Shown: one piece after another, positions 1,787 through 60,784 of the stretch
Numbering within the stretch: the stretch's first letter is position 1
Layout of the letters: every line of letters starts with the position of its first letter
Source of the DNA: Jiangellales bacterium
GTDB lineage: Bacteria; Actinomycetota; Actinomycetes; Jiangellales; Jiangellaceae
Assembly (NCBI GenBank): GCA_030447955.1
Contig: JAUJNY010000003.1
Span: forward strand, 194,422 to 258,421
Length of the DNA: 64,000 bases
Direction of reading: 5' to 3'
The notes under the pieces: model-generated
Databases searched by the model: none
The model's input: the letters and a program-made list of their open reading frames with translations, nothing else
Told to the model about the DNA's origin: nothing
Program-made: the position numbers and the translations under genes

Positions 1787-2334
1787 AGCCGCTCCAGCCG
1801 GTCGAGGGCGCGGGAGATCAGGTCGGCCGGCGGTCCACTCCGGTCCCGCCGCCGATCACCCGGATGGTCGGGGTCGAGCAGCTCCCACACGACGTCGTCG
1901 CCGACCTCCACCCGCCCGCGCTGCGGGTCACGGTGGAGGTCGACGTGGGTCCTGGCGGCGAGCCGAGCGGCGAGCACCCGTTGCAGCCGAGGACGCAGCG
2001 CCACCTCGAAGTCGTACGGGGATCGCAGCCCCCACTCGAGCGCCGAGCGGGTCGGCGCAAAGCCGGGGAAGTCGGGCTCGACGCTCACCCGGGCGCGACG
2101 CTGACGCCACCAGCGGAACGGGTCAGCCGTCGGCGGGCCGGCAGCAGAGACCCGCCACACCGCCAGCACCGCCGCGGCGATCAGCACCGCAGCCGCCAGC
2201 AGCCCCGCCGGGCCGGCGAGCAGCAGCCCCGCACAGAGCAAGACGCCCGGCCACAGCCGCGGCACCCGCCGGCGAGGGGGTCGGGCGGGGGCCTGCGGAG
2301 CGCTCGCGTACGGCGGTCCGGCCAGGTGGCTCAC
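1783..2334 (-). CDS. hypothetical membrane protein of the MoxR/DUF58 cluster
   Basis: A 183-residue protein I do not recognise beyond its context. It has a Pro/Arg-rich N-terminus, one or two hydrophobic stretches at about residues 28-60, and a soluble basic C-terminal half containing an ERGLRSPYDFEV-like segment. Both ends overlap their neighbours by 4 bases, so it is co-translated between the DUF4129 protein and the MoxR ATPase. Many actinobacterial MoxR clusters carry a short membrane protein in this slot. It is probably a structural or accessory partner at the membrane. Confidence 0.7.
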   Translation of the reverse strand: MSHLAGPPYASAPQAPARPPRRRVPRLWPGVLLCAGLLLAGPAGLLAAAVLIAAAVLAVWRVSAAGPPTADPFRWWRQRRARVSVEPDFPGFAPTRSALEWGLRSPYDFEVALRPRLQRVLAARLAARTHVDLHRDPQRGRVEVGDDVVWELLDPDHPGDRRRDRSGPPADLISRALDRLERL

Positions 2335-3332
2335 GTCGAGTACCCGGAGCCGGGGGCGCCGGCTGCTCGGCCGGACACCCGATCGGACACCCGGGCAGCA
2401 AGGTCGGAGGTGATGCGGGCGAGCGCCTCCTCGGCGGCTGCCCGCTCACCGTGGCCGAGGGGGTGGGAGGAGAAGCGCGCCTCGCCGAACAGCCGGGTCA
2501 GCGTGGCAGCCGGTCCGGGGCTCACCAGCCCGGCCGCGCTCGTCCGCGCCAGCAGCTCCTCGGGTGTCTCGGCGTGTCCTCGGGCGGTGCCCGAGCTCGC
2601 CAGCTGCGCCTCCATGGCCGCGTAGCAGGCAACGACAGCGGCCCGTGGCTCGGTCGCCGCGCTCAGGGCGGCCTGGCCGGCGCGCACGGCCTGATCGACG
2701 GCGGCGAGCCCCGCGGCATCCGGCTCCGCGTGCTCACCCGAGTCGGCCGAAGCGGCGGCCATGCTGGCCAGGCGGGCCCGCCACCACACCAACGCCGCCC
2801 CGGCTGCGAGGACCAGGGCGAGCACGGCGCCCGTCGTCGTCCAGGTCCAGGATGACTCGCCCCGCGTCGACGCCTCTCCGGCCGCGGGTTCGGCCGCGGC
2901 CGGATCGGGACGTCGAGGCAGTGCCGGGGGGTCGACCAACCCGTTGCGCAGCACTACCCACAGCAGCAGGGCCAGCACCACCCCGACGACGACGGTGAGC
3001 GGGTCGAGGCGACGCCGCACCGCCCGCCCGCGCGGGTCCCTGCCCACGCCGTAGAAGGCCTGGAGCACCAGGGCCGCCACCACGACGCCGACGAGGAGGG
3101 CAAACAACGTCGCGATCAGCTGAGTCGACGCGGCGCCGCGGAGCAGCGGCGCAGAGCTGAGGCTCACCCGGCCCGCCGCTGCGATGCCGGCGCTGGTCAG
3201 GGCGAGCAGCGCCAGGACCGCGACCACGACGACGATGCCCCGCGCCGCCCCGGTGCGCGGCCCAGCCGGCGGCCGTACGCTCACGCGCCCTCCCTGCCGC
3301 GATCGAGACGATCGCCGTCGCGGCTGCCTCAC
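2331..3332 (-). CDS. DUF4129 domain membrane protein
   Basis: A 333-residue membrane protein with about four hydrophobic segments (roughly residues 31-53, 71-95, 112-128 and 170-186). Its C-terminal DUF4129 domain is recognisable by the block VVACYAAMEAQLASSG, ETPEELLAR and LFGEARFSSHPLG. In transglutaminase-like proteins of MoxR clusters this domain forms the C-terminal part; here it stands without a transglutaminase core. It is the first gene of the minus-strand operon continuing through MoxR to DUF58. The ATG at 3332 was used; an in-frame GTG about 16 codons inside is also possible. The gene is divergent from the amino acid dehydrogenase, with 155 bp between them. Confidence 0.82.
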   Translation of the reverse strand: MRQPRRRSSRSRQGGRVSVRPPAGPRTGAARGIVVVVAVLALLALTSAGIAAAGRVSLSSAPLLRGAASTQLIATLFALLVGVVVAALVLQAFYGVGRDPRGRAVRRRLDPLTVVVGVVLALLLWVVLRNGLVDPPALPRRPDPAAAEPAAGEASTRGESSWTWTTTGAVLALVLAAGAALVWWRARLASMAAASADSGEHAEPDAAGLAAVDQAVRAGQAALSAATEPRAAVVACYAAMEAQLASSGTARGHAETPEELLARTSAAGLVSPGPAATLTRLFGEARFSSHPLGHGERAAAEEALARITSDLAARVSDRVSGRAAGAPGSGYST

Positions 3333-51010: not shown

Positions 51011-52306
51011 TCATGGGCCGGGACCGGCGAGCTCGGTGATGACGGCGCTGAGCGCCTCCACACCGGCAAGGCAGTCGGCCGGCTCGGCGAACTCCGCCGG
51101 GGAGTGTGAGACGCCGGTCGGGTTGCGGACGAAGAGCATCGCCGTCGGCACGCCGGCGGCGGCGAGGATGCCGGCGTCGTGGCCCGCGGCCGTGGGCAGC
51201 ACGGGTGCTCCACCCAGCAGTACGGAGATCCGCTCGCTCAGCGGCCCGTCGAAGCCGACGACGGGGGTCACGGACTCCGCCGTGACCTCGACCGAGGTGC
51301 CGTCACGCTCGGCCCGATCCCGAGCCTGCTGGGTCAGCGCCGCGAGCAGCGCGTCCAGGCTCCGCTGGTCCGCGGCGCGGGCGTCAAGCCACGCCTGCAC
51401 CCGCGCGGGGATCGCGTTGGTCGCGTTCGGCGTGACCTCGACGCGGCCGAACGTGGCGCGGGCCCCGGCCAGCCGGGCCTGCTTGTTGGCGGCGAGCGCG
51501 GTCATGGCGTAGGTCAGCATCGGGTCGGCGCGGTCGTCCATGCGGGTCGTCCCCGCATGGTCGGCCCGGCCGTCGAAAGTGACCCGCCAGCGTCCGTGCG
51601 GCCAAATGTCGCTGCCGACGCCCACCGGCGCGCCGATGTCGACGAGTGCACGGCCCTGCTCGACGTGCAGCTCGACGTAGGTCCCGATGCGCGCCAGCCG
51701 CTCGTCGTCTCGCCCGAGCCGTGCAGGGTCATGACCTGCGGTGGCCAGCGCCTCGGCGAGCGTGATGCCCTCCCGGTCGCGCAGCGCCCTGGCCCGGTCG
51801 GGGTCAAGGGCGCCGGTGAGCAGCCGGGAGCCAACGCACGGGACTCCGAAGCGGGCGCCCTCCTCGTCGGCGAAGGCGCACACCGCGACCGGACGGCGCA
51901 GCGGCGCCCCGTCGAGCCCGTAGAACGCGTCGACCGCGTCGAGCGCGGCAAAGGCCGACACGATCCCCAACGGCCCGTCGTACGGCCCTCCGTCGGGGAC
52001 CGAGTCGAGGTGCGACCCGAGGACGAGGGCGTCTTCGCCGCAGGGGTCGCCGCGCCAGGCCCACAGGTTGCCGTTGCCGTCGGTCTCGACCCCCATGCCG
52101 CGGGCGCCGGCTGCGGCGGTGAACCACTCCCGGCAGCCGGCGTCCGCCGGCGTCCACGCGAACCGCCGGTAGCCGTCGGATCGCGGGTCCCGGCCGATGG
52201 GGAGGAGCGCCTGCCACAGGTCCTCGAAGGACTTGTCAGACCCGTGCCGGGCTGGGGCCCGGTGGAGGTCTGACAAGTCGCCAGTCACCCGCCGCCCTGG
52301 CGTCAC
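51011..52306 (-). CDS. M20 amidohydrolase (allantoate amidohydrolase/N-carbamoylase type) in hut operon
   Basis: A 431-residue metal-dependent amidohydrolase of the hydantoinase/carbamoylase family. Motifs include [29 protein letters not shown] (about 95-113), [26 protein letters not shown], and [11 protein letters not shown]. It is usually named allantoate amidohydrolase, but in this operon it occupies the place of N-formylglutamate deformylase (HutG), which is absent; acting on N-formylglutamate is my inference. GTG 52306 overlaps the hutU stop; GTG 52288 is also possible. The first 20 or so residues are encoded by an R2 palindrome before the family N-terminus [15 protein letters not shown]. 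Confidence 0.82.
52232..52274. repeat. 43-bp palindromic repeat, family R2, copy 2
   Basis: Perfect 13-nt arms GACTTGTCAGACC (52230-52242) and GGTCTGACAAGTC (52267-52279) enclose GCCGGG and GGGCCCGG. The 43-bp core aligns without gaps to copy 1 at 37440-37482. It lies 24 nt behind the hutU stop codon and within the open frame of the following amidohydrolase gene, whose N-terminal residues [16 protein letters not shown] it would encode. Confidence 0.82.
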
Positions 52307-53976
52307 CCGCCGCCCTCGAGCATCGGGATTCGCAGGTCGCTGCGCGCGGCGACCTCGGCGGCGGCGTCGTAGCCGGCGTCGACGTGGCGGATGACGCCGG
52401 TGGCCGGGTCGTTGCTGAGTACGCGCTCCAGCTTGGCTGCGGCTAGCTGCGTGCCGTCGGCCACGGACACCTGCCCGGCGTGGATCGAGCGACCCATGCC
52501 GACCCCACCGCCGTGGTGCACCGACACCCAGGAGGCGCCGGAGGAGGTGGCGACGAGCGCGTTGAGCAGCGGCCAGTCAGCTATCGCGTCCGAGCCGTCA
52601 AGCATGGCCTCGGTCTCGCGGTACGGCGAGGCCACCGAGCCGCAGTCCAGGTGGTCCCGGCCGATGACGATCGGGGCCTGGACGGCTCCGGAGGCCACCA
52701 GCTCGTTGAAACGCAGTCCCGCGAGGTGCCGCTCCCCGTACCCGAGCCAGCAGATCCGCGCCGGCAGCCCCTGAAAGGCCACCCGCTCACCGGCCAGCCG
52801 GATCCAGCGCGCCAGTGGCTCGTTGCCCGGGAACAGCTCGAGCACCGCCCGGTCGGTCGCGGCGATGTCGGCCGGGTCCCCGGACAGCGCCGCCCAGCGG
52901 AACGGCCCCTTCCCCGCGCAGAACAACGGACGGATGTAGGCCGGCACGAAGCCCGGGAAGTCGAACGCACGCTCGTAGCCGGCGAGCTTGGCCTCCCCCC
53001 GGATCGAGTTGCCGTAGTCGAAGACCTCCGCACCAGCGTCCAGGAACCCGACCATCGCCTCGACGTGGCGCGCCATCGACTCCCGCGCCGCCTTGGTGAA
53101 CCCCGCGGGGTCGCGCGTGCGGGCGTCGGACCAGTCCTCGACGCCCACCCCCACCGGCAGGTAGGCCAGCGGGTCGTGAGCGCTGGTCTGGTCGGTCACG
53201 ATGTCGACCTCGACCCCACGGGCGAGCAGCTCGGGGACGACCTCGGCGGCGTTGCCCAGCACCCCGATGCTCAGCGCCCGCCGCTCGCGCCGGGCCGCCT
53301 CGGCCGTACGGATGGCGTCGTCGAGGTCCTCGGCGCGCACGTCGAGGTATCGGTGCTCGAGCCGGCGCTCGATCCGGGACGGGTCACACTCCACGCATAG
53401 CGCGACGCCGCCGTTCATGGTGATGGCGAGCGGCTGGGCGCCGCCCATGCCGCCCAGTCCCGCGGTCAGCGTGAGGGTGCCGGCGAGTGAGCCACCGCCG
53501 TTCTTGCCGGAACGCTCGCGCTTGGCGGCGACCGCGGCGAATGTCTCGTAGGTGCCCTGCAGGATCCCCTGAGTGCCGATGTAGATCCACGACCCGGCGG
53601 TCATCTGGCCGTACATCGTCAGGCCGAGCGCCTCGAGCCGACGGAACTCCTCCCAGGTGGCCCAGTCGCCGACCAGGTTGGAGTTGGCGATCAGCACCCG
53701 CGGCGCCCACTCGTGCGTGCGGAGCACGCCCACCGGCTTGCCGGACTGCACGAGCAGCGTCTCGTCGTCGGCGAGCGTGGTGAGGGTCCGGGTGATCGCG
53801 TCGAAGCTGGGCCAGTCGCGGGCCGCCTTGCCCGTGCCGCCGTAGACGACGAGGTCCTCCGGGCGCTCGGCGACCTCGGGGTCGAGGTTGTTGTGCAGCA
53901 TGCGCAGCGCGGCCTCCTGCGGCCACGATCGGGCGGTCAGCTCGCTGCCCCGCGCGGCCCGGACGACTCGGCTCAT
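52303..53976 (-). CDS. hutU: urocanate hydratase
   Basis: HutU (urocanase) hydrates urocanate to 4-imidazolone-5-propionate using NAD as an electrophilic cofactor. The 557-residue protein has [32 protein letters not shown], an NAD-binding block around [14 protein letters not shown], and the conserved [23 protein letters not shown]. The ATG at 53976 has GGAGGAGG upstream and is preferred over the longer frame that reads into the R1 repeat. It follows hutH on the same strand. Confidence 0.97.
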
Positions 53977-54005
53977 CGGCGTCCTCCTCCTCCCCCGGCA
54001 CCTGG

Positions 54006-54064
54006 TCGAGTGGACACTTCGGTACGGAAACGCCAGCGTGTCGCGACCCGAACTGTCCACTCGA
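54006..54064. repeat. 59-bp palindromic repeat, family R1, copy 3
   Basis: Outer arms TCGAGTGGACA and TGTCCACTCGA (11 nt, perfect) flank an inner stem around GTACGGAAACGC / GCGTGTCGCGAC. It differs from copy 1 at scattered positions but has the same 59-bp length. It lies 3 nt behind the hutH stop and 29 nt ahead of the hutU start, as an intercistronic element of the hut operon. Confidence 0.85.
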
Positions 54065-54067
54065 TCT

Positions 54068-55615
54068 TCATGACAGGGGCCCGGTCACCGTCTCGGCGGC
54101 CGCGACGACGCCACCACTGCGCACCAGCTCGACGACCGCGGCGATCTCCGGGGCGAGGTGCCGGTCCGGGCCCGGCCCGGGCGCCAGCCGCCGTACGGCG
54201 TCGCGGACGGCGCCGGTCGCGGCGGCCGGTGCGAGCGGCGCGCGCAGGTCGAGGGCGCGCGCCGCCGTGAGCACCTCGATCGCCAGGACAGCACGCAGTC
54301 CGTCGAGGGAGCGGTGCAGCTTGCGGGCCGCGGTCCAGCCCATTGAGACGTGGTCCTCCTGCATCGCGCTGGACGGGATCGAGTCGACGCTGGCGGGCAC
54401 GGCGAGCCGCTTGAGCTCGCTGACGATCCCGGCCTGCGTGTACTGCGCGATCATGTACCCGGAGTCGACGCCGGGGTCGGCGGCGAGGAACGCGGGCAGC
54501 CCCGAGCTGCGCGCCACGTCGAGCAGCCGGTCGGTACGCCGCTCGGCGATCGAGGCCACGTCGGCGACCGCGATCGCAAGGAAGTCCAGGACGTATCCCA
54601 AAGGCGCACCGTGGAAGTTGCCGTTGGACTCCACTCGCCCGTCGAGGGTGACCACCGGGTTGTCGATCGCGGCGGCGAGCTCGCAGCCGGCGACCGTCGT
54701 GGCGTGGGCAAGGGTGTCGCGGGCTGCACCGTGCACCTGCGGGGCGCAGCGCAGCGAGTAGGCGTCCTGCACCCGCGGGCAGTCCGGCACCCGGTGGCTG
54801 AGCACGATCGGGCTGCCGGCGAGCAGCGCTCGCAGGTTGGCGGCGCTGTCGGCCTGCCCGGGGTGCGGTCGCAGCGCCAGCAGGTCTGCGGCGAAGGCGG
54901 CATCCGTCCCCAGCGCCGCCTCCACGCTCATGGCCGCCGCGATGTCGGCGGTACGCAGCAGGATGTCCAGGTCAGCGGCCGCCAGCACGAGCATCCCGAG
55001 CATGCCGTCGGTGCCGTTGATGAGGGCGAGCCCCTCCTTGGCGGCGAGCTCGACCGGTGCCAGGCCAGCCGTACGCAGCGCCGCGCCCGCCGGGTGGCGT
55101 TCCCCGGCCGCGTCGTCGACCTCGCCCTCACCGATCAGGGCCAGCGCCACGTGCGCCAAGGGCGCCAGGTCGCCGGAGCAGCCGAGGCTGCCGTGCTCGG
55201 GCACCACCGGCGTGAGGCCCGCGTTCAGGAGCCCCTCCAGAGCGCGCGCGACCTCGACCCGCACGCCCGTACGACCGCTGGCCAGCGTGCGCAGCCGCAG
55301 CAGCATCATGGCGCGGGTGACCTCCCGCTCCACCGTCGGACCGGAGCCTGCGGCGTGCGAGCGGACCAGGCTGCGCTGCAGCTGCTCGCGGCGCTCCACC
55401 GGGATGTGAACGGTCGCCAGCGCGCCGAAGCCCGTCGAGACGCCGTAGTGCGGGGCCGTGTCATCGGCGAGCGCCTGGACGACCTTCCGCGAGCGCTCCA
55501 TCTCCGCCACCGCCTCGTCGGTGAGGTGCACCCGTGCCCCGCGGCGCGCGACCTCGACGACGGCGGGGGGTGACAGGGCCTGCGGGCCAACGGCGACTGG
55601 TTGATCGACGTCCAC
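54068..55615 (-). CDS. hutH: histidine ammonia-lyase
   Basis: HutH deaminates L-histidine to urocanate through the self-made MIO cofactor. The 515-residue protein has [14 protein letters not shown], the cofactor region [17 protein letters not shown] (the tripeptide is Cys-Ser-Gly where the textbook form is Ala-Ser-Gly), [24 protein letters not shown] and NPVV..NGNFHG. The GTG at 55615 gives the normal length; the frame stays open far upstream, antisense to the Fe-S gene. It is the first gene of the hut operon and divergent from the Fe-S oxidoreductase, with 81 bp between starts. Confidence 0.96.
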
Positions 55616-55696
55616 GAGCCCATCTTCGCGCGCCGCCGTACCCTGTCGCCCACAACCTCGCCACACACCGGTCGCCGACATACGGGAGGAGCCGTC

Positions 55697-57928
55697 GTGC
55701 TGCGCATCGCGGCGGTCGTGTTGTCGCTCGCGGCGACCGTGGTCGCGCTGGCGCTGCTCGCACGGGCTGTCGCGCGCATCGTCGCGGTCGTGCGGCTGGG
55801 GCAGCCGGCGCCGGGCCGGACCAGCCCCGTCGGGCCGCGGCTCGTCACCACGCTCAAGGAGACGCTCGGCCACACCCGGATGCTGAAGTGGACGCTGGTG
55901 GGTGCCGCTCACTGGTTCGTCTTCGTCGGGTTCGGCGCGCTTTTCTTCACGCTGGTCACCGCGTACGGGCAGGTCTTCGACCCTGATTTCGGGTTGCCGC
56001 TCATCGGCCATTGGTGGCCGTACGAGCTGGCCGCAGAGACGATCGCCGTCCTCACCGGGCTGGGGATCCTCGTGCTCATCGTGGTCCGCCAACGTGCTCA
56101 CCCCCGCGAGGTGGGGCGGCGCTCACGCTTCGCCGGCTCGACGTTCTGGCAGGCCTATTACGTCGAGGCCACGATCGTCGGAATCGTCGCCTGCGTCCTC
56201 GCGCTGCGCGGGCTGGAGGGTGCCCTGCGCGGTGTCGAGGGATGGAGCCTGCACCACGCCTTCTCTTACCCGCTGGTGCTCGCATTCCGCGGGCTGTCGG
56301 CGGGGACGCTGGAGACGGCCATCGTGGTGGTCGCCACGCTCAAGATCCTCATCTCGATGGCGTGGTTCGTCGTCATCGCGCTCAACCTCACGATGGGCGT
56401 GGCCTGGCATCGCTTCACGGTGTTCCCCAACGTGTTCGCCAAGCGCCACACCGACGGGCGTCCGTCACTGGGTGCCCTGCCGCCGGTCATGGTCGGCGGC
56501 GAGCCGGTCGACTTCGAGAACGCCGAGGAGCTGGACGAGGACGCTGCGCTGGGCGTCGGCAAGGTCGAGGACTTCAGCTGGAAGGGGCTGCTCGACTTCA
56601 CCACGTGCACCGAGTGCGGCCGCTGCCAGAGCCAGTGCCCCGCCTGGCACACCGGCAAGCCGCTCTCCCCCAAGCTGCTGATCACCCAGCTGCGCGACCA
56701 CGCGTACGCCAAGGCGCCGTACCTGCTCGCTGCCGAGGCCGACCGGCAGAGCCTCGACGCGCTGGTCAAGGCCGAGGCCGAGCGGCCCATCGTCGGACCC
56801 GCCGCGGAGGGCGGGGTCATCGACCCGGACGTGTTGTGGTCGTGCGTGACCTGCGGCGCCTGCGTCGAGCAGTGCCCGGTCGACATCGAGCACGTCGACC
56901 ACATCGCTGACCTGCGCCGCTACCAGGTCATGCTGGCCGACAACTTCCCCAAGGAGCTGGGCGGGCTGTTCCGCAACCTCGAGCGGTCGGGCAACCCGTG
57001 GGGCGTCAACGCCAGCAAGCGCCTGGAGTGGGCCGCCGGGCTGCCCTTCGAGGTGCGCCAGGTCGGCGTGGACGTCGAGGATCTCGCCGAGGTGGACTAC
57101 CTGTTCTGGGTCGGCTGCGCCGGTGCCTTCGACGACCGCGCCAAGAAGACCACGCAGGCGGTCGCGGAGCTGCTGCACACCGCCGGGGTCTCCTTCGCCG
57201 TCCTCGGGGACGGAGAGTCCTGCACCGGCGACCCGGCCCGCCGCGCGGGCAACGAGTTCCTCTTCCAGATGCTGGCGCAGCAGAACGTGGAGGTGCTGCG
57301 CGAGAGCGGCACCACCCGCGTCGTCGTGACCTGCCCGCACTGCTTCAACACTTTGCGCAACGAGTACGTCCAGCTGGGGCTGCAGCTCGAGGTCGTCCAC
57401 CACACCCAGCTACTCAACCGCCTCGTCCGCGAGGGGCGGCTCACCCCCGTCGCCGCCGCCAACGGCGCCCTCGACGGGTCGGTGGACGGGCGGCGGGTGA
57501 CCTACCACGACCCGTGCTACCTGGGCCGGCACAACCAGGTGTACGAGCCGCCGCGCGAGCTCGTCGCGGCGGTGCCCGGAGTGCAGTACGCCGAGATGCC
57601 GCGCTCGGGCTCCCGCTCCTTCTGCTGCGGTGCGGGCGGGGCACAGATGTGGATGGAGGAGCGCATCGGCACCCGCATCAACGCCGACCGCACCGCCGAG
57701 GCCGTCGCGACGGGCGCGACAGCGGTCGCGACCGCGTGCCCCTTCTGCCGGATCATGCTGTCCGACGGCGTGACCGCTGCCCAGCAGGACGGCAGCGCCG
57801 GCGACGACGTCGAGGTGCTCGATGTCGCGCAGCTGCTGCTGGCCGCCGTACGGCGCGGCGCTCCGTCGCCCAACCCCGCTGTCCCCGCCAGGAGCACCGC
57901 GGGAGAGCAAGCGCCGCCGCGGGGCTGA
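55697..57928 (+). CDS. membrane (Fe-S)-binding oxidoreductase, heterodisulfide reductase-related
   Basis: A 743-residue respiratory-type protein. The N-terminal 260 residues hold about five to six membrane helices resembling a nitrate reductase gamma/cytochrome b module. Two 4Fe-4S motifs follow, CTECGRCQSQCP (about 308-319) and CVTCGACVEQCP (about 389-400). The C-terminus has two CCG domains (CPHCFNTLRNEY, HDPCYLGRHN and SFCCGAGGAQMWMEE). Such proteins pass electrons between the quinone pool and soluble dehydrogenases; the partner is unknown. The GTG at 55697 has GGGAGGAG 5 nt upstream. A hairpin overlaps the stop codon. Confidence 0.9.
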   Translation: MLRIAAVVLSLAATVVALALLARAVARIVAVVRLGQPAPGRTSPVGPRLVTTLKETLGHTRMLKWTLVGAAHWFVFVGFGALFFTLVTAYGQVFDPDFGLPLIGHWWPYELAAETIAVLTGLGILVLIVVRQRAHPREVGRRSRFAGSTFWQAYYVEATIVGIVACVLALRGLEGALRGVEGWSLHHAFSYPLVLAFRGLSAGTLETAIVVVATLKILISMAWFVVIALNLTMGVAWHRFTVFPNVFAKRHTDGRPSLGALPPVMVGGEPVDFENAEELDEDAALGVGKVEDFSWKGLLDFTTCTECGRCQSQCPAWHTGKPLSPKLLITQLRDHAYAKAPYLLAAEADRQSLDALVKAEAERPIVGPAAEGGVIDPDVLWSCVTCGACVEQCPVDIEHVDHIADLRRYQVMLADNFPKELGGLFRNLERSGNPWGVNASKRLEWAAGLPFEVRQVGVDVEDLAEVDYLFWVGCAGAFDDRAKKTTQAVAELLHTAGVSFAVLGDGESCTGDPARRAGNEFLFQMLAQQNVEVLRESGTTRVVVTCPHCFNTLRNEYVQLGLQLEVVHHTQLLNRLVREGRLTPVAAANGALDGSVDGRRVTYHDPCYLGRHNQVYEPPRELVAAVPGVQYAEMPRSGSRSFCCGAGGAQMWMEERIGTRINADRTAEAVATGATAVATACPFCRIMLSDGVTAAQQDGSAGDDVEVLDVAQLLLAAVRRGAPSPNPAVPARSTAGEQAPPRG

Positions 57929-58051: not shown

Positions 58052-58088
58052 TTGCATGATGTCGTGTGTGGTGTCATAATGACGTCAT
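58052..58088 (+). promoter_or_regulatory. promoter with palindrome over the start codon (leaderless)
   Basis: TTGCAT (58052-58057) and CATAAT (58075-58080) are separated by 17 bp, a good sigma-70-type pair in otherwise GC-rich DNA. The expected transcription start falls at about 58087, the A of the ATG, so the mRNA would be leaderless; indeed no ribosome binding site is seen. A perfect 10-bp palindrome ATGACGTCAT (58079-58088) overlaps the -10 box and start codon, and TGATGTC/GTGTCAT half-sites occur in the spacer. The downstream ribbon-helix-helix protein may autorepress here. Confidence 0.6.
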
Positions 58089-58593
58089 GGAGTTGGGACC
58101 GTACGTCGAGGCGGTACGCCACGACCTCGGAGCGGCGGCTGAGGCTGCCGGTGCCGACGTCGAGGCCGCCGCGCAGCGGCTCGCGTTCGCGCTCGACCCC
58201 AGCATGCGGCTGGCGCTGCTCGACGCGCTAGGCGACGCTGCAGCCGAGATCAGTGCGGCGCTACCTGTTGGAGGCATCGAGCTCCGGCTGCGGGGGCGCG
58301 AGCCACGCTTCGTCGTGCTAGTCCCCGAGACGCAGGGGTCCCCGATCCCGCCGGGTTCGCCCGATCTACCGCCGACCCCCGCACCCCCGGGTATGCCCAC
58401 CGCGGAGGGTGACGACGCCACCGCCCGCGTCAGCCTGCGGCTACCCGAGAGCCTCAAGGCGCAGGCCGAGGAAGCCGCCGCCCGCGAAGGCGTCTCCCTC
58501 AACAACTGGCTGGTCCGCGCCGCCACCCGAGCCCTCCATCCCTCCGCTCCTCCCCCACCGTTCGCTCGCCGACTCTCCGGCTGGGTGCGCTGA
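58087..58593 (+). CDS. ribbon-helix-helix (HicB antitoxin-like C-terminus) protein
   Basis: A 168-residue protein. An Ala-rich helical N-terminal region (about 1-60) and a short strand segment (GIELRLRGREPRFVVLVPE) lead, through a Pro-rich linker (about 84-105), to a C-terminal ribbon-helix-helix. That domain, VSLRLPESLKAQAEEAAAREGVSLNNWLVRAATRAL (about 115-150), is of the kind annotated as HicB-like antitoxin. It probably binds DNA as a dimer. No HicA-like toxin is adjacent. The ATG at 58087 follows a promoter that predicts a leaderless mRNA. A strong ribosome binding site leads into the next small gene, 60 bp away. Confidence 0.75.
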   Translation: MELGPYVEAVRHDLGAAAEAAGADVEAAAQRLAFALDPSMRLALLDALGDAAAEISAALPVGGIELRLRGREPRFVVLVPETQGSPIPPGSPDLPPTPAPPGMPTAEGDDATARVSLRLPESLKAQAEEAAAREGVSLNNWLVRAATRALHPSAPPPPFARRLSGWVR

Positions 58594-58653
58594 ACCCCTG
58601 ACCGCACCACGACAGAACCCCACGAACCACCACAAGAAACAAGGAGAACTCCG

Positions 58654-58821
58654 ATGGCCCTGATCGAGAACGCCGTGCACGCCGACCTGGCGCACGCGGC
58701 CGCGCCCGTCCCCCACGCGGCGCACCTGTACGAGATCGACCGCGAGGAGCGCCCGATGCGGCGGCGAGTCGCCTCGAGCGGCCGCCTCGCCCGAAAGGCC
58801 CGCGACTGGTTCCGCAGCTGA
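58654..58821 (+). CDS. 55-residue basic peptide of the RHH/DUF4097 cassette
   Basis: A short ORF with an AAGGAGAA ribosome binding site 6 nt before the ATG, one of the best in the window. The 55 residues start MALIENAVHADLAHAAAPVP and end in an Arg-rich amphipathic helix (RPMRRRVASSGRLARKARDWF). No membrane helix is seen. No family is recognised. Its position between the RHH gene and DUF4097 suggests that the three act together. Its stop codon begins a 26-bp tandem duplication. Confidence 0.65.
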   Translation: MALIENAVHADLAHAAAPVPHAAHLYEIDREERPMRRRVASSGRLARKARDWFRS

Positions 58822-58870
58822 GCTGTCAGTCCGACCGCTCAGCCTGAGCTGTCAGTCCGACGGCTCAGCC
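58819..58870. repeat. 26-bp tandem duplication
   Basis: TGAGCTGTCAGTCCGAC followed by C or G and GCTCAGCC is present twice in tandem (58819-58844 and 58845-58870), differing at one base. The first copy begins with the stop codon of the 55-residue ORF. GGCTGAGC/GCTCAGCC pairing lets the unit fold, so it may tune expression of DUF4097. Confidence 0.8.
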
Positions 58871-58894
58871 TCACCCATCACGACGGAGGCACGC

Positions 58895-59764
58895 ATGCAC
58901 CGATTCCCCACCCCTGCCCCCACCACCCTGCGCGTCGACCTGGCAGCCGGGTCGGTGGCCATCGACACCGTCGACGGTGGCGAGACCACGATCGAGCTGT
59001 CGCCGCTGTGCCAGGGTGACGACGCGGCGGCGGAGCTGGTCGCGCGTGCCCGCGTCGAACAGGTCGGCGACGCCGTAGTCGTCAGTGTGCCCACGACCAG
59101 CGGGACACTGCGGCGGGTCCCCGACGTCGAGCTGGTCGCCCGGGTCCCCACCGGCAGCAGCGTGGACATCCGCACCAAGTCGGCGGACGTGACAAGCACC
59201 GGAGAGCTAGCGCGCTTCGACGCCACCACCGCGTCCGGCGACATCCGCGTCCAGCACGTCACCGGGACAGTCGAGATTCGCACGGCCAGCGGCGATGTCT
59301 CGATCCGCCGGGTCGACGCGGACGCGCAGGTGCAGTCCGCTTCGGGCGGCGTCTCCATCGCGGCTGCGCTGGGTCCGGTCACGGTGGGGACCGCGTCAGG
59401 TGACATCGACCTGACCCGAGCCAGCGGACCGGTGACGGCCACAACCGCGTCGGGTGACATCCGGCTGGGCGAGCTGGCCGCCGGTGCCGACGGGCGTACG
59501 GCCTCCGGAGACATCGAGGTCCGTACGGCCCGCTGCGGGCCGCTCCAGCTCAACTCCGCCTCCGGCGACGTCCGCGTCGGAGTGCCCACCGGCACGGTCG
59601 CCTGGCTCGACGTGGCATCGATGTCCGGTGACGTCAGCTCGACGCTGGACCCGACAGACGGTCCGGACGAGGACGGCCCGACCCTCGAGGTGCGGGTACG
59701 CACGATGTCGGGAGACGTCGGCGTACGCCGCGTCGGCCAGCCGGCCGAGGCAGCCCGCAGCTGA
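58895..59764 (+). CDS. DUF4097 family beta-strand repeat protein
   Basis: A 289-residue protein made of about ten degenerate repeats built on TASGDIRV-like strands (ATTASGDIRV, RTASGDVSI, GTASGDIDL, ATTASGDIRL, RTASGDIEV, NSASGDVRV, ASMSGDVSS, RTMSGDVGV). This is the DUF4097 beta-helix. There is no signal peptide, so it appears cytoplasmic. The family function is unknown. GGAGG lies 9 nt before the ATG. It is the last gene of the RHH-peptide-DUF4097 cassette and converges on dcd. Confidence 0.88.
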   Translation: MHRFPTPAPTTLRVDLAAGSVAIDTVDGGETTIELSPLCQGDDAAAELVARARVEQVGDAVVVSVPTTSGTLRRVPDVELVARVPTGSSVDIRTKSADVTSTGELARFDATTASGDIRVQHVTGTVEIRTASGDVSIRRVDADAQVQSASGGVSIAAALGPVTVGTASGDIDLTRASGPVTATTASGDIRLGELAAGADGRTASGDIEVRTARCGPLQLNSASGDVRVGVPTGTVAWLDVASMSGDVSSTLDPTDGPDEDGPTLEVRVRTMSGDVGVRRVGQPAEAARS

Positions 59765-59780: not shown

Positions 59781-60356
59781 TCAGGTGCGGGCGCGGTGGA
59801 AGTTGAGGTAGGACCTCGACGGCGTCGGGCCGCGCTGCCCCTGGTAGCGCGAGCCGTGCCGGGCGGAGCCGTACGGCTCCTCAGCCGCGGTGCTCAGCCC
59901 GAAGAAGCACAGCTGACCGATCTTCATGCCCGGCCACAGCTTGATGGGCAGGGTTGCGACGTTGCTCAGCTCCAGGGTCACGTGACCGGTGAACCCTGGG
60001 TCGACAAAGCCCGCGGTTGAGTGAGTGAGCAGTCCCAGCCGGCCGAGACTCGATTTGCCTTCGAGCCTCGCGGCGATGTCGTCCGGCAGCGTCACGCCCT
60101 CAAATGAGGAGGCGAGCACGAATTCACCGGGGTGCAAGATGAACGGCTCATCCGCTGCGGGCTCGACCAGGCGGGTGAGGTCGGGCTGCTCCTCGGCGGG
60201 GTCGATGTGCGGGTAGCGGTGATTCTCGAAGACCCGGAAGTACCGGTCGAGCCGGACGTCGATGCTCGACGGCTGGACCATCGCGGGGTCGTACGGGTCG
60301 AGCAAGACGCGCCCCGCCTCAATCGCCGCCCGGATGTCGCGGTCCGAGAGCAGCAT
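59781..60356 (-). CDS. dcd: dCTP deaminase, dUMP-forming type
   Basis: A 191-residue trimeric nucleotide hydrolase. It aligns closely in recognisable blocks with the mycobacterial bifunctional dCTP deaminase:dUTPase: [59 protein letters not shown], the catalytic Glu in HVTLELSN, and [11 protein letters not shown]. It would make dUMP directly for thymidylate synthesis. It is divergent from the tRNA-Gly gene. Confidence 0.95.
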
Positions 60357-60423
60357 GCGCGGACCCTACCGGCCGGTTCTGACGCTTCGGCTACCATCGC
60401 AGCCGCGGCGCCGCTGGCGTCCG

Positions 60424-60494
60424 GCGGGTGTAGTTCAATGGCAGAACATCAGCTTCCCAAGCTGACAGTGGGGGTTCGATTCCCCTCACCCGCT
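60424..60494 (+). tRNA. tRNA-Gly (CCC anticodon)
   Basis: A 71-nt cloverleaf: acceptor arms GCGGGTG/CACCCGC, D-stem GTTC/GAAC, anticodon stem TCAGC/GCTGA with loop TTCCCAA (anticodon CCC), and a T-arm with GGTTCGATTCC. CCA is not encoded. Relics of a mobile element start right behind its 3' end, so this gene may have been an integration site. Confidence 0.93.
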
Positions 60495-60784
60495 CCCCCT
60501 CGGTGACCTGCATCGTCGGAGGTCAGAGGCATGATCGCCAGGCTCGCAAGTTCCCGGCGAGTGACCGTGATGACCCGCCTCGTGCCCTTGTTTGCCGCCG
60601 CTTAGGGCACAACTAGGGCACGACCCGCGATCTTGGTCACGGTCACCGGTCAAAAGGGACTCGCCGAATGGCCGGCGGGCGAGCTGGCGGAGAATGACGT
60701 GCTGGCCGGCTATCGCGTCCGTGCGGCCGGTCTCGAGGTGCACGCGGCGTGAGCAGGGCGGAGATCGGCAGCCGTCGGGCGTAG
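60495..60784 (+). other. non-coding or degenerate stretch behind tRNA-Gly
   Basis: No intact gene is seen. The motif GGGCACAACTAGGGCACGA near 60606-60624 (two GGGCAC units) and a short open tail reading EWPAGELAENDVLAGYRVRAAGLEVHAA (ending near 60752) look like leftovers of small regulatory or replication genes of an integrative element. No duplicate of the tRNA 3' end (attachment site) was found elsewhere in the window. Confidence 0.45.

Follow-up and report, generated by a model that had tools for sequence, protein, structure and literature searches.

The locus considered here lies in a 64,000-nucleotide stretch of DNA from a Jiangellales bacterium (hereafter, the window) and brings together genes for a ribbon-helix-helix (RHH) protein, a basic peptide and a DUF4097 (toastrack) protein (Table 1). 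The original prediction, made from the letters of this stretch, named two possibilities, an uncharacterised regulatory module or a toxin-antitoxin-like one, and the question is which of them the locus encodes and how its expression would be controlled. The regulatory half of that proposal stands, supported by a conserved operator and a conserved RHH-toastrack gene order. We favour, with some confidence, a self-repressing regulatory operon in which the toastrack protein would be the partner of the RHH protein and the peptide a lineage-specific third gene.

Table 1. Features of the RHH-DUF4097 locus. Positions refer to the window unless other loci are named.
Feature	Position	Strand	Basis
-35 element TTGCAT	58052-58057	+	sequence; T at -35 from ATG in 95% of 143 loci
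Operator box 1, TGATGTCG, 7/8 to TGRYGYCA	58057-58064	+	box position conserved in relatives
Operator box 2, TGGTGTCA, 8/8 to TGRYGYCA	58069-58076	+	
-10 element CATAAT, bridging the junction of boxes 2 and 3	58075-58080	+	sequence; conserved A at -11, T at -7
Operator box 3, TGACGTCA, 8/8; ends on the A of the start codon and forms the core of the palindrome at 58079-58088	58080-58087	+	
RHH regulator gene, 168 aa	58087-58593	+	Pfam HicB match, homologues
Ribosome-binding site of the peptide gene, AAGGAG, 7 nt before ATG	58641-58646	+	sequence
55-aa basic peptide gene	58654-58821	+	GC3 0.96; no detectable homologue
Tandem pair of 26-bp repeats (25/26 identical), both with hairpin potential	58818-58869	+	z = -3.35
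DUF4097 ribosome-binding site GGAGG	58885-58889	+	sequence
DUF4097 (toastrack) protein gene, 289 aa	58895-59764	+	PF13349, 1.2e-25
Peptide gene of a second family (loci L197-L208, L211)	~1490-1645	RHH strand	

The original prediction placed the transcription start of the operon on the ATG of the RHH gene, from a TTGCAT and a CATAAT element separated by 17 bp. Both elements were confirmed. They predict a +1 at 58087, the A of the ATG, and their geometry proved to be conserved across loci of the Actinomycetota. When the A of the start codon is taken as +1, 95% of 143 distinct loci have a T at -35, 84% an A at -11 and 87% a T at -7, which are the canonical places for sigma-70-type -35 and -10 elements. 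No motif resembling a Shine-Dalgarno sequence precedes the RHH start in 76 of 77 loci. By sequence and conservation the RHH gene thus begins as a leaderless gene does, with promoter elements that set +1 on the ATG and no Shine-Dalgarno motif, which argues strongly for a leaderless start of its mRNA. Leaderless mRNAs are common among actinobacteria, for example in M. tuberculosis (PMC3898074), and the RHH transcript would share with them a transcription start at the start codon; here, however, the geometry is kept across many families and is fused with an operator.

This operator is an array of three boxes with the consensus TGRYGYCA, which extends from the -35 element to the start codon. A perfect palindrome over the -10 box and the start codon, ATGACGTCAT, had been reported earlier and is indeed present (58079-58088), once in the window against 0.01 occurrences expected from shuffles; it is only the third and last box of the array, which had gone unnoticed. 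The boxes follow one another at 12 and then 11 bp (58057, 58069 and 58080). This spacing places the window in a 12/11 minority, the commonest arrangement among relatives being 11/11 bp, or about one helical turn. The two-box 11-bp pattern has one match in the window, against 0.00 expected.

The same array emerges on aligning the RHH starts of relatives. Conservation of the palindrome across actinobacteria had been proposed as a check, and it is the three-box layout that is kept: all 76 loci scored across the Actinomycetota reach an operator score of at least 20/24. Start codons in this count were taken from the protein match, independently of the operator, and one locus (L130) was excluded, its called start being without the array. 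Given equal spacing freedom, 2727 control ATGs from the same loci have a score distribution that peaks at 13, with few values above 18. Another 73 loci reach 20/24 or more as well, which is weaker evidence, as their starts were picked with the operator in view and some duplicate earlier loci. Among 14 loci fetched phylum-wide, eight carry the array at this threshold, some distant members being without it. Taken together, these comparisons strongly support an operator that overlaps the start codon. In the papers that could be searched, no prior description was found of this operator, of the conserved leaderless geometry or of the interposed peptides discussed below.

The array is nearly exclusive to the RHH promoter. 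The exact pattern of two boxes plus ATG is present in the genomes of 29 of 60 relatives, where its matches lie at or slightly 5' of the RHH start, save those in G040 and G053 and one contig-end match in G011; the reversed control pattern has zero occurrences in the same 60 genomes. A three-box search with two mismatches allowed recovered mainly the RHH promoter again, with few matches for the control. G009 has a second array some 0.5 kb upstream, beginning at the Fe-S gene's stop codon. This distribution suggests that the RHH protein is a regulator dedicated to its own locus, sometimes with one additional target. The near-confinement of the sites to its own promoter makes autorepression the simplest interpretation; activation instead of repression would also be compatible with the sequence taken alone. 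In G040 and G053, a palindromic pair, TGGCGCCA-11-bp-TGGCGCCA, lies on the ATG of a FitA-like RHH protein, which is a different regulator with a similar arrangement. These two FitA-like antitoxin genes (L213 and L214), whose start codon overlaps TGGCGCCATAATGGCGCCATG, come from two different families, and one of the two genomes is without the RHH-toastrack regulator.

The order of the RHH and toastrack genes is as constant as it is widespread. The DUF4097 protein is identified as a toastrack protein by its match to PF13349, which reaches 90.7 bits against a cut-off of 22.9; neither a signal peptide nor a membrane segment is apparent by eye. Of 395 class genomes, 134 carry an RHH homologue, and these come from 51 of 138 genera; homologues also occur in other families of the phylum. 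Most genomes with the pair have one copy of it. In 138 of 143 class-level loci (138 of the 142 informative ones), DUF4097 lies directly 3' of the RHH gene in the same orientation, and it is downstream in all 14 loci fetched phylum-wide. The five class-level exceptions are L105, which is cut by a contig end, L176, and L132, L134 and L135; the last three keep the RHH gene and its operator with other genes in the place of DUF4097. The promoter design can thus do without an adjacent toastrack gene, which counts against the reading preferred here.

Within the window's family, the pair has the same upstream neighbour, an Fe-S oxidoreductase gene (64-73% identity), and dcd nearby, so that the window locus is the orthologous one. 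In the window, the dCTP deaminase gene dcd (minus strand) and a tRNA-Gly (CCC) adjoin the operon (59781-60497), and dcd is also found near the pair in several other families. The neighbours on the other side (52303-57928) are ordinary, namely urocanase and, by eye, histidine ammonia-lyase on the minus strand and the Fe-S oxidoreductase on the plus strand. The TTG start listed for the oxidoreductase gene (55601) may lie too far upstream.

An association between RHH and toastrack genes was already known: the main text of Ravi et al. (2024; PMC11237479) briefly mentions an actinobacterial toastrack-ABC operon in which an RHH protein replaces the GntR factor, and argues that toastrack proteins are intracellular scaffolds of membrane-stress systems. 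The loci studied here resemble that variant in the RHH gene beside DUF4097, with an ABC ATPase and permease in some lineages; the window differs from it in having no transporter and an extra small peptide, and the single main-text sentence on the variant gives no operator, promoter or peptide. With LiaG and other lia-type toastrack proteins, the window protein shares the toastrack fold and a partial match to the LiaG model, which is far below its cut-off (61 against 285 bits). No gene for PspA, PspC, LiaF, LiaI or a two-component system was found in the window operon, where DUF4097 is followed by dcd on the opposite strand, and no recurrent partner of the Lia/PSP type was found next to the loci of relatives. 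A literature search for DUF4097 or HicB-like RHH proteins in Streptomyces, including S. coelicolor, returned nothing relevant.

One alternative places the output of the RHH protein in transport: it would control ABC or MFS export genes, with the toastrack protein as sensor, and the window operon would be a reduced form that has lost its transporter. This would fit the related GntR-toastrack-ABC operons treated in the main text of PMC11237479 and the ABC ATPase and ABC-2 permease genes that come next after the pair in some lineages. It would also fit a locus in G031 (L212), where a perfect three-box array (~1930-1959) ends, in a leaderless-looking geometry, where an MFS transporter gene begins (ORF 1962-3242). 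However, most loci are without an adjacent transporter, and no second exact two-box site was found in the window's own genome; we consider this explanation possible but rather unlikely. Under the self-repressing operon that we prefer, a link to transport or membrane stress would likewise be suggested by the neighbours in other species.

Conservation of the three-gene order had been proposed as a check, with lack of the small ORF in relatives as a refuting outcome, and for this sequence that outcome was obtained. No other locus of the family has the 55-aa ORF; there, the spacer between RHH and DUF4097 is empty and only ~20-70 nt long; that of the window, at 307 nt, is the longest of all loci. 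Neither Pfam nor NCBIfam has a match for the peptide, and searches of 60 relatives, 22 family genomes and 395 class genomes yielded nothing above chance level, most matches falling within long frames of unrelated sequence. The assembly of the window genome is 82% complete, and no other member of its genus is in the comparison set. The lack of a homologue in the searched genomes and the non-coding state of several other long spacers would be expected if the ORF were a chance frame in an enlarged GC-rich spacer and not a gene. Against this stand its GC3 of 0.96, compared with 0.81-0.93 for neighbouring genes, its good ribosome-binding site and a conserved peptide in a second family, which demonstrates that a gene can occupy this position. 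The ORF thus looks coding, and we think a chance frame improbable. Among other long spacers inspected as peptide carriers, L182, L184, L084, L142, L088 and L195 have no convincing ORF, and the apparent length of L004, L141 and L130 comes from a late choice of start codon.

The sole other spacer with a convincing ORF, that of L125 (genome G360), led to this second peptide family. In 13 genomes of one actinobacterial family, spread by their search labels over three genera, a basic peptide of 46-55 aa (typically ~48), with the typical sequence MFDN..DAIAA.RIGGPLEE...RRR, fills precisely the slot between RHH and DUF4097. Five pairs give dN/dS values of ~0.11-0.36, which indicates purifying selection, and the three peptides tested have no Pfam match. 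Homology to the window peptide was rejected, as the pairwise score is reached by 37% of shuffles and the profile rank is 219 of 501 among shuffles. Two slot peptides of like size and charge and different sequence may reflect independent acquisition or divergence beyond detection, and the small-peptide idea of the original prediction is partly favoured, the slot being the same though the sequence is unrelated. Also missing from that prediction was a 26-bp hairpin duplication that begins within the final codons of the peptide gene and runs before DUF4097; no other copy of the repeat was found in the assembly, and the tandem hairpins may govern how much peptide is made relative to toastrack protein. 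It is conceivable, if unlikely, that the locus represents a widespread three-part signalling device made of the RHH repressor, a toastrack scaffold and, in at least two lineages, basic micropeptides. The micropeptides, independently acquired or hyper-diverged in the same slot, would tune the RHH-toastrack complex, and an operator built into the start codon would let repression and leaderless translation initiation share one sequence.

The RHH protein itself consists of a conserved N-terminal domain (residues ~1-80), a Pro-rich linker, the RHH domain (~113-150) and a C-terminal GW(V/A)R tail. The RHH domain is identified by Pfam HicB, which matches residues 116-144 (1.2e-5, above cut-off; RHH_1 falls just under its own cut-off), and by helices at 121-134 and 138-150 in a low-confidence structure model (eight sequences, mean pLDDT 49), which gives the N-terminal domain three helices and two strands. 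PDB sequence searches returned no useful match. R67 and G70 of the N-terminal domain are conserved in 97% of the RHH proteins, and the C-terminal G[WY] motif in 140 of 143. Simple RHH repressors need neither such a domain nor such a motif, and both are candidate contacts for the toastrack protein. MetJ, CopG, ParG and omega are RHH repressors with tandem boxes, which the present locus resembles in its short palindromic boxes at about one helical turn, presumably with one dimer each; it differs from them in that the last box includes the start codon of a leaderless mRNA, and in the extra conserved N-terminal domain and C-terminal GW tail.

The earlier description of this protein as HicB-antitoxin-like applies to an RHH segment of ~30 residues, which scores to Pfam HicB, and fails beyond it, since no match to the HicB N-terminal antitoxin domain was found with Pfam or NCBIfam. 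The label 'HicB family antitoxin' carried by homologues reflects this segment only. HicA had been noted as absent, and a PF07927 search of the whole assembly (82% complete) likewise gave no match. The fold of DUF4097 is not known from toxins. A toxin-antitoxin module, with the RHH protein as antitoxin, the basic peptide or DUF4097 as toxin and type II-like autorepression, would agree with the HicB score, with that label on homologues in Streptomyces plasmid records and with the TGGCGCCA pair on the ATG of the FitA-like antitoxins, but it is very unlikely, given the absence of HicA, the constant toastrack partner of the RHH protein, a peptide missing at nearly all loci, and a pair that is mostly single copy and, in the window's family, occupies a syntenic chromosomal spot behind the Fe-S oxidoreductase gene.

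From the box array, the leaderless geometry, the near-exclusive site and the fixed RHH-toastrack order seen in the compared sequences, we infer the following course of events for the self-repressing operon. RHH dimers would bind the three TGRYGYCA boxes, which repeat in tandem at roughly one helical turn, all on the same side of the helix. Bound in this way, they would cover the promoter from the -35 element to the start codon and shut their own leaderless promoter. The co-transcribed, cytoplasmic toastrack protein would act as the partner of the RHH protein, as a scaffold or a sensor that relieves or tunes repression, and the signal would probably be related to the envelope or to efflux. The 55-aa peptide would be a third gene specific to its lineage, possibly an accessory factor of the RHH-toastrack complex.

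The RHH-toastrack pair is present in about one third of the sampled class genomes, including Streptomyces, where annotations of its homologues read 'HicB family antitoxin' or hypothetical and are probably misleading. It is also a clear example of a leaderless layout that seems to be under selection in its own right. Because the operator is sharply defined and almost unique per genome, direct tests in laboratory Streptomyces could address the regulator and its targets as well as what the toastrack protein does.
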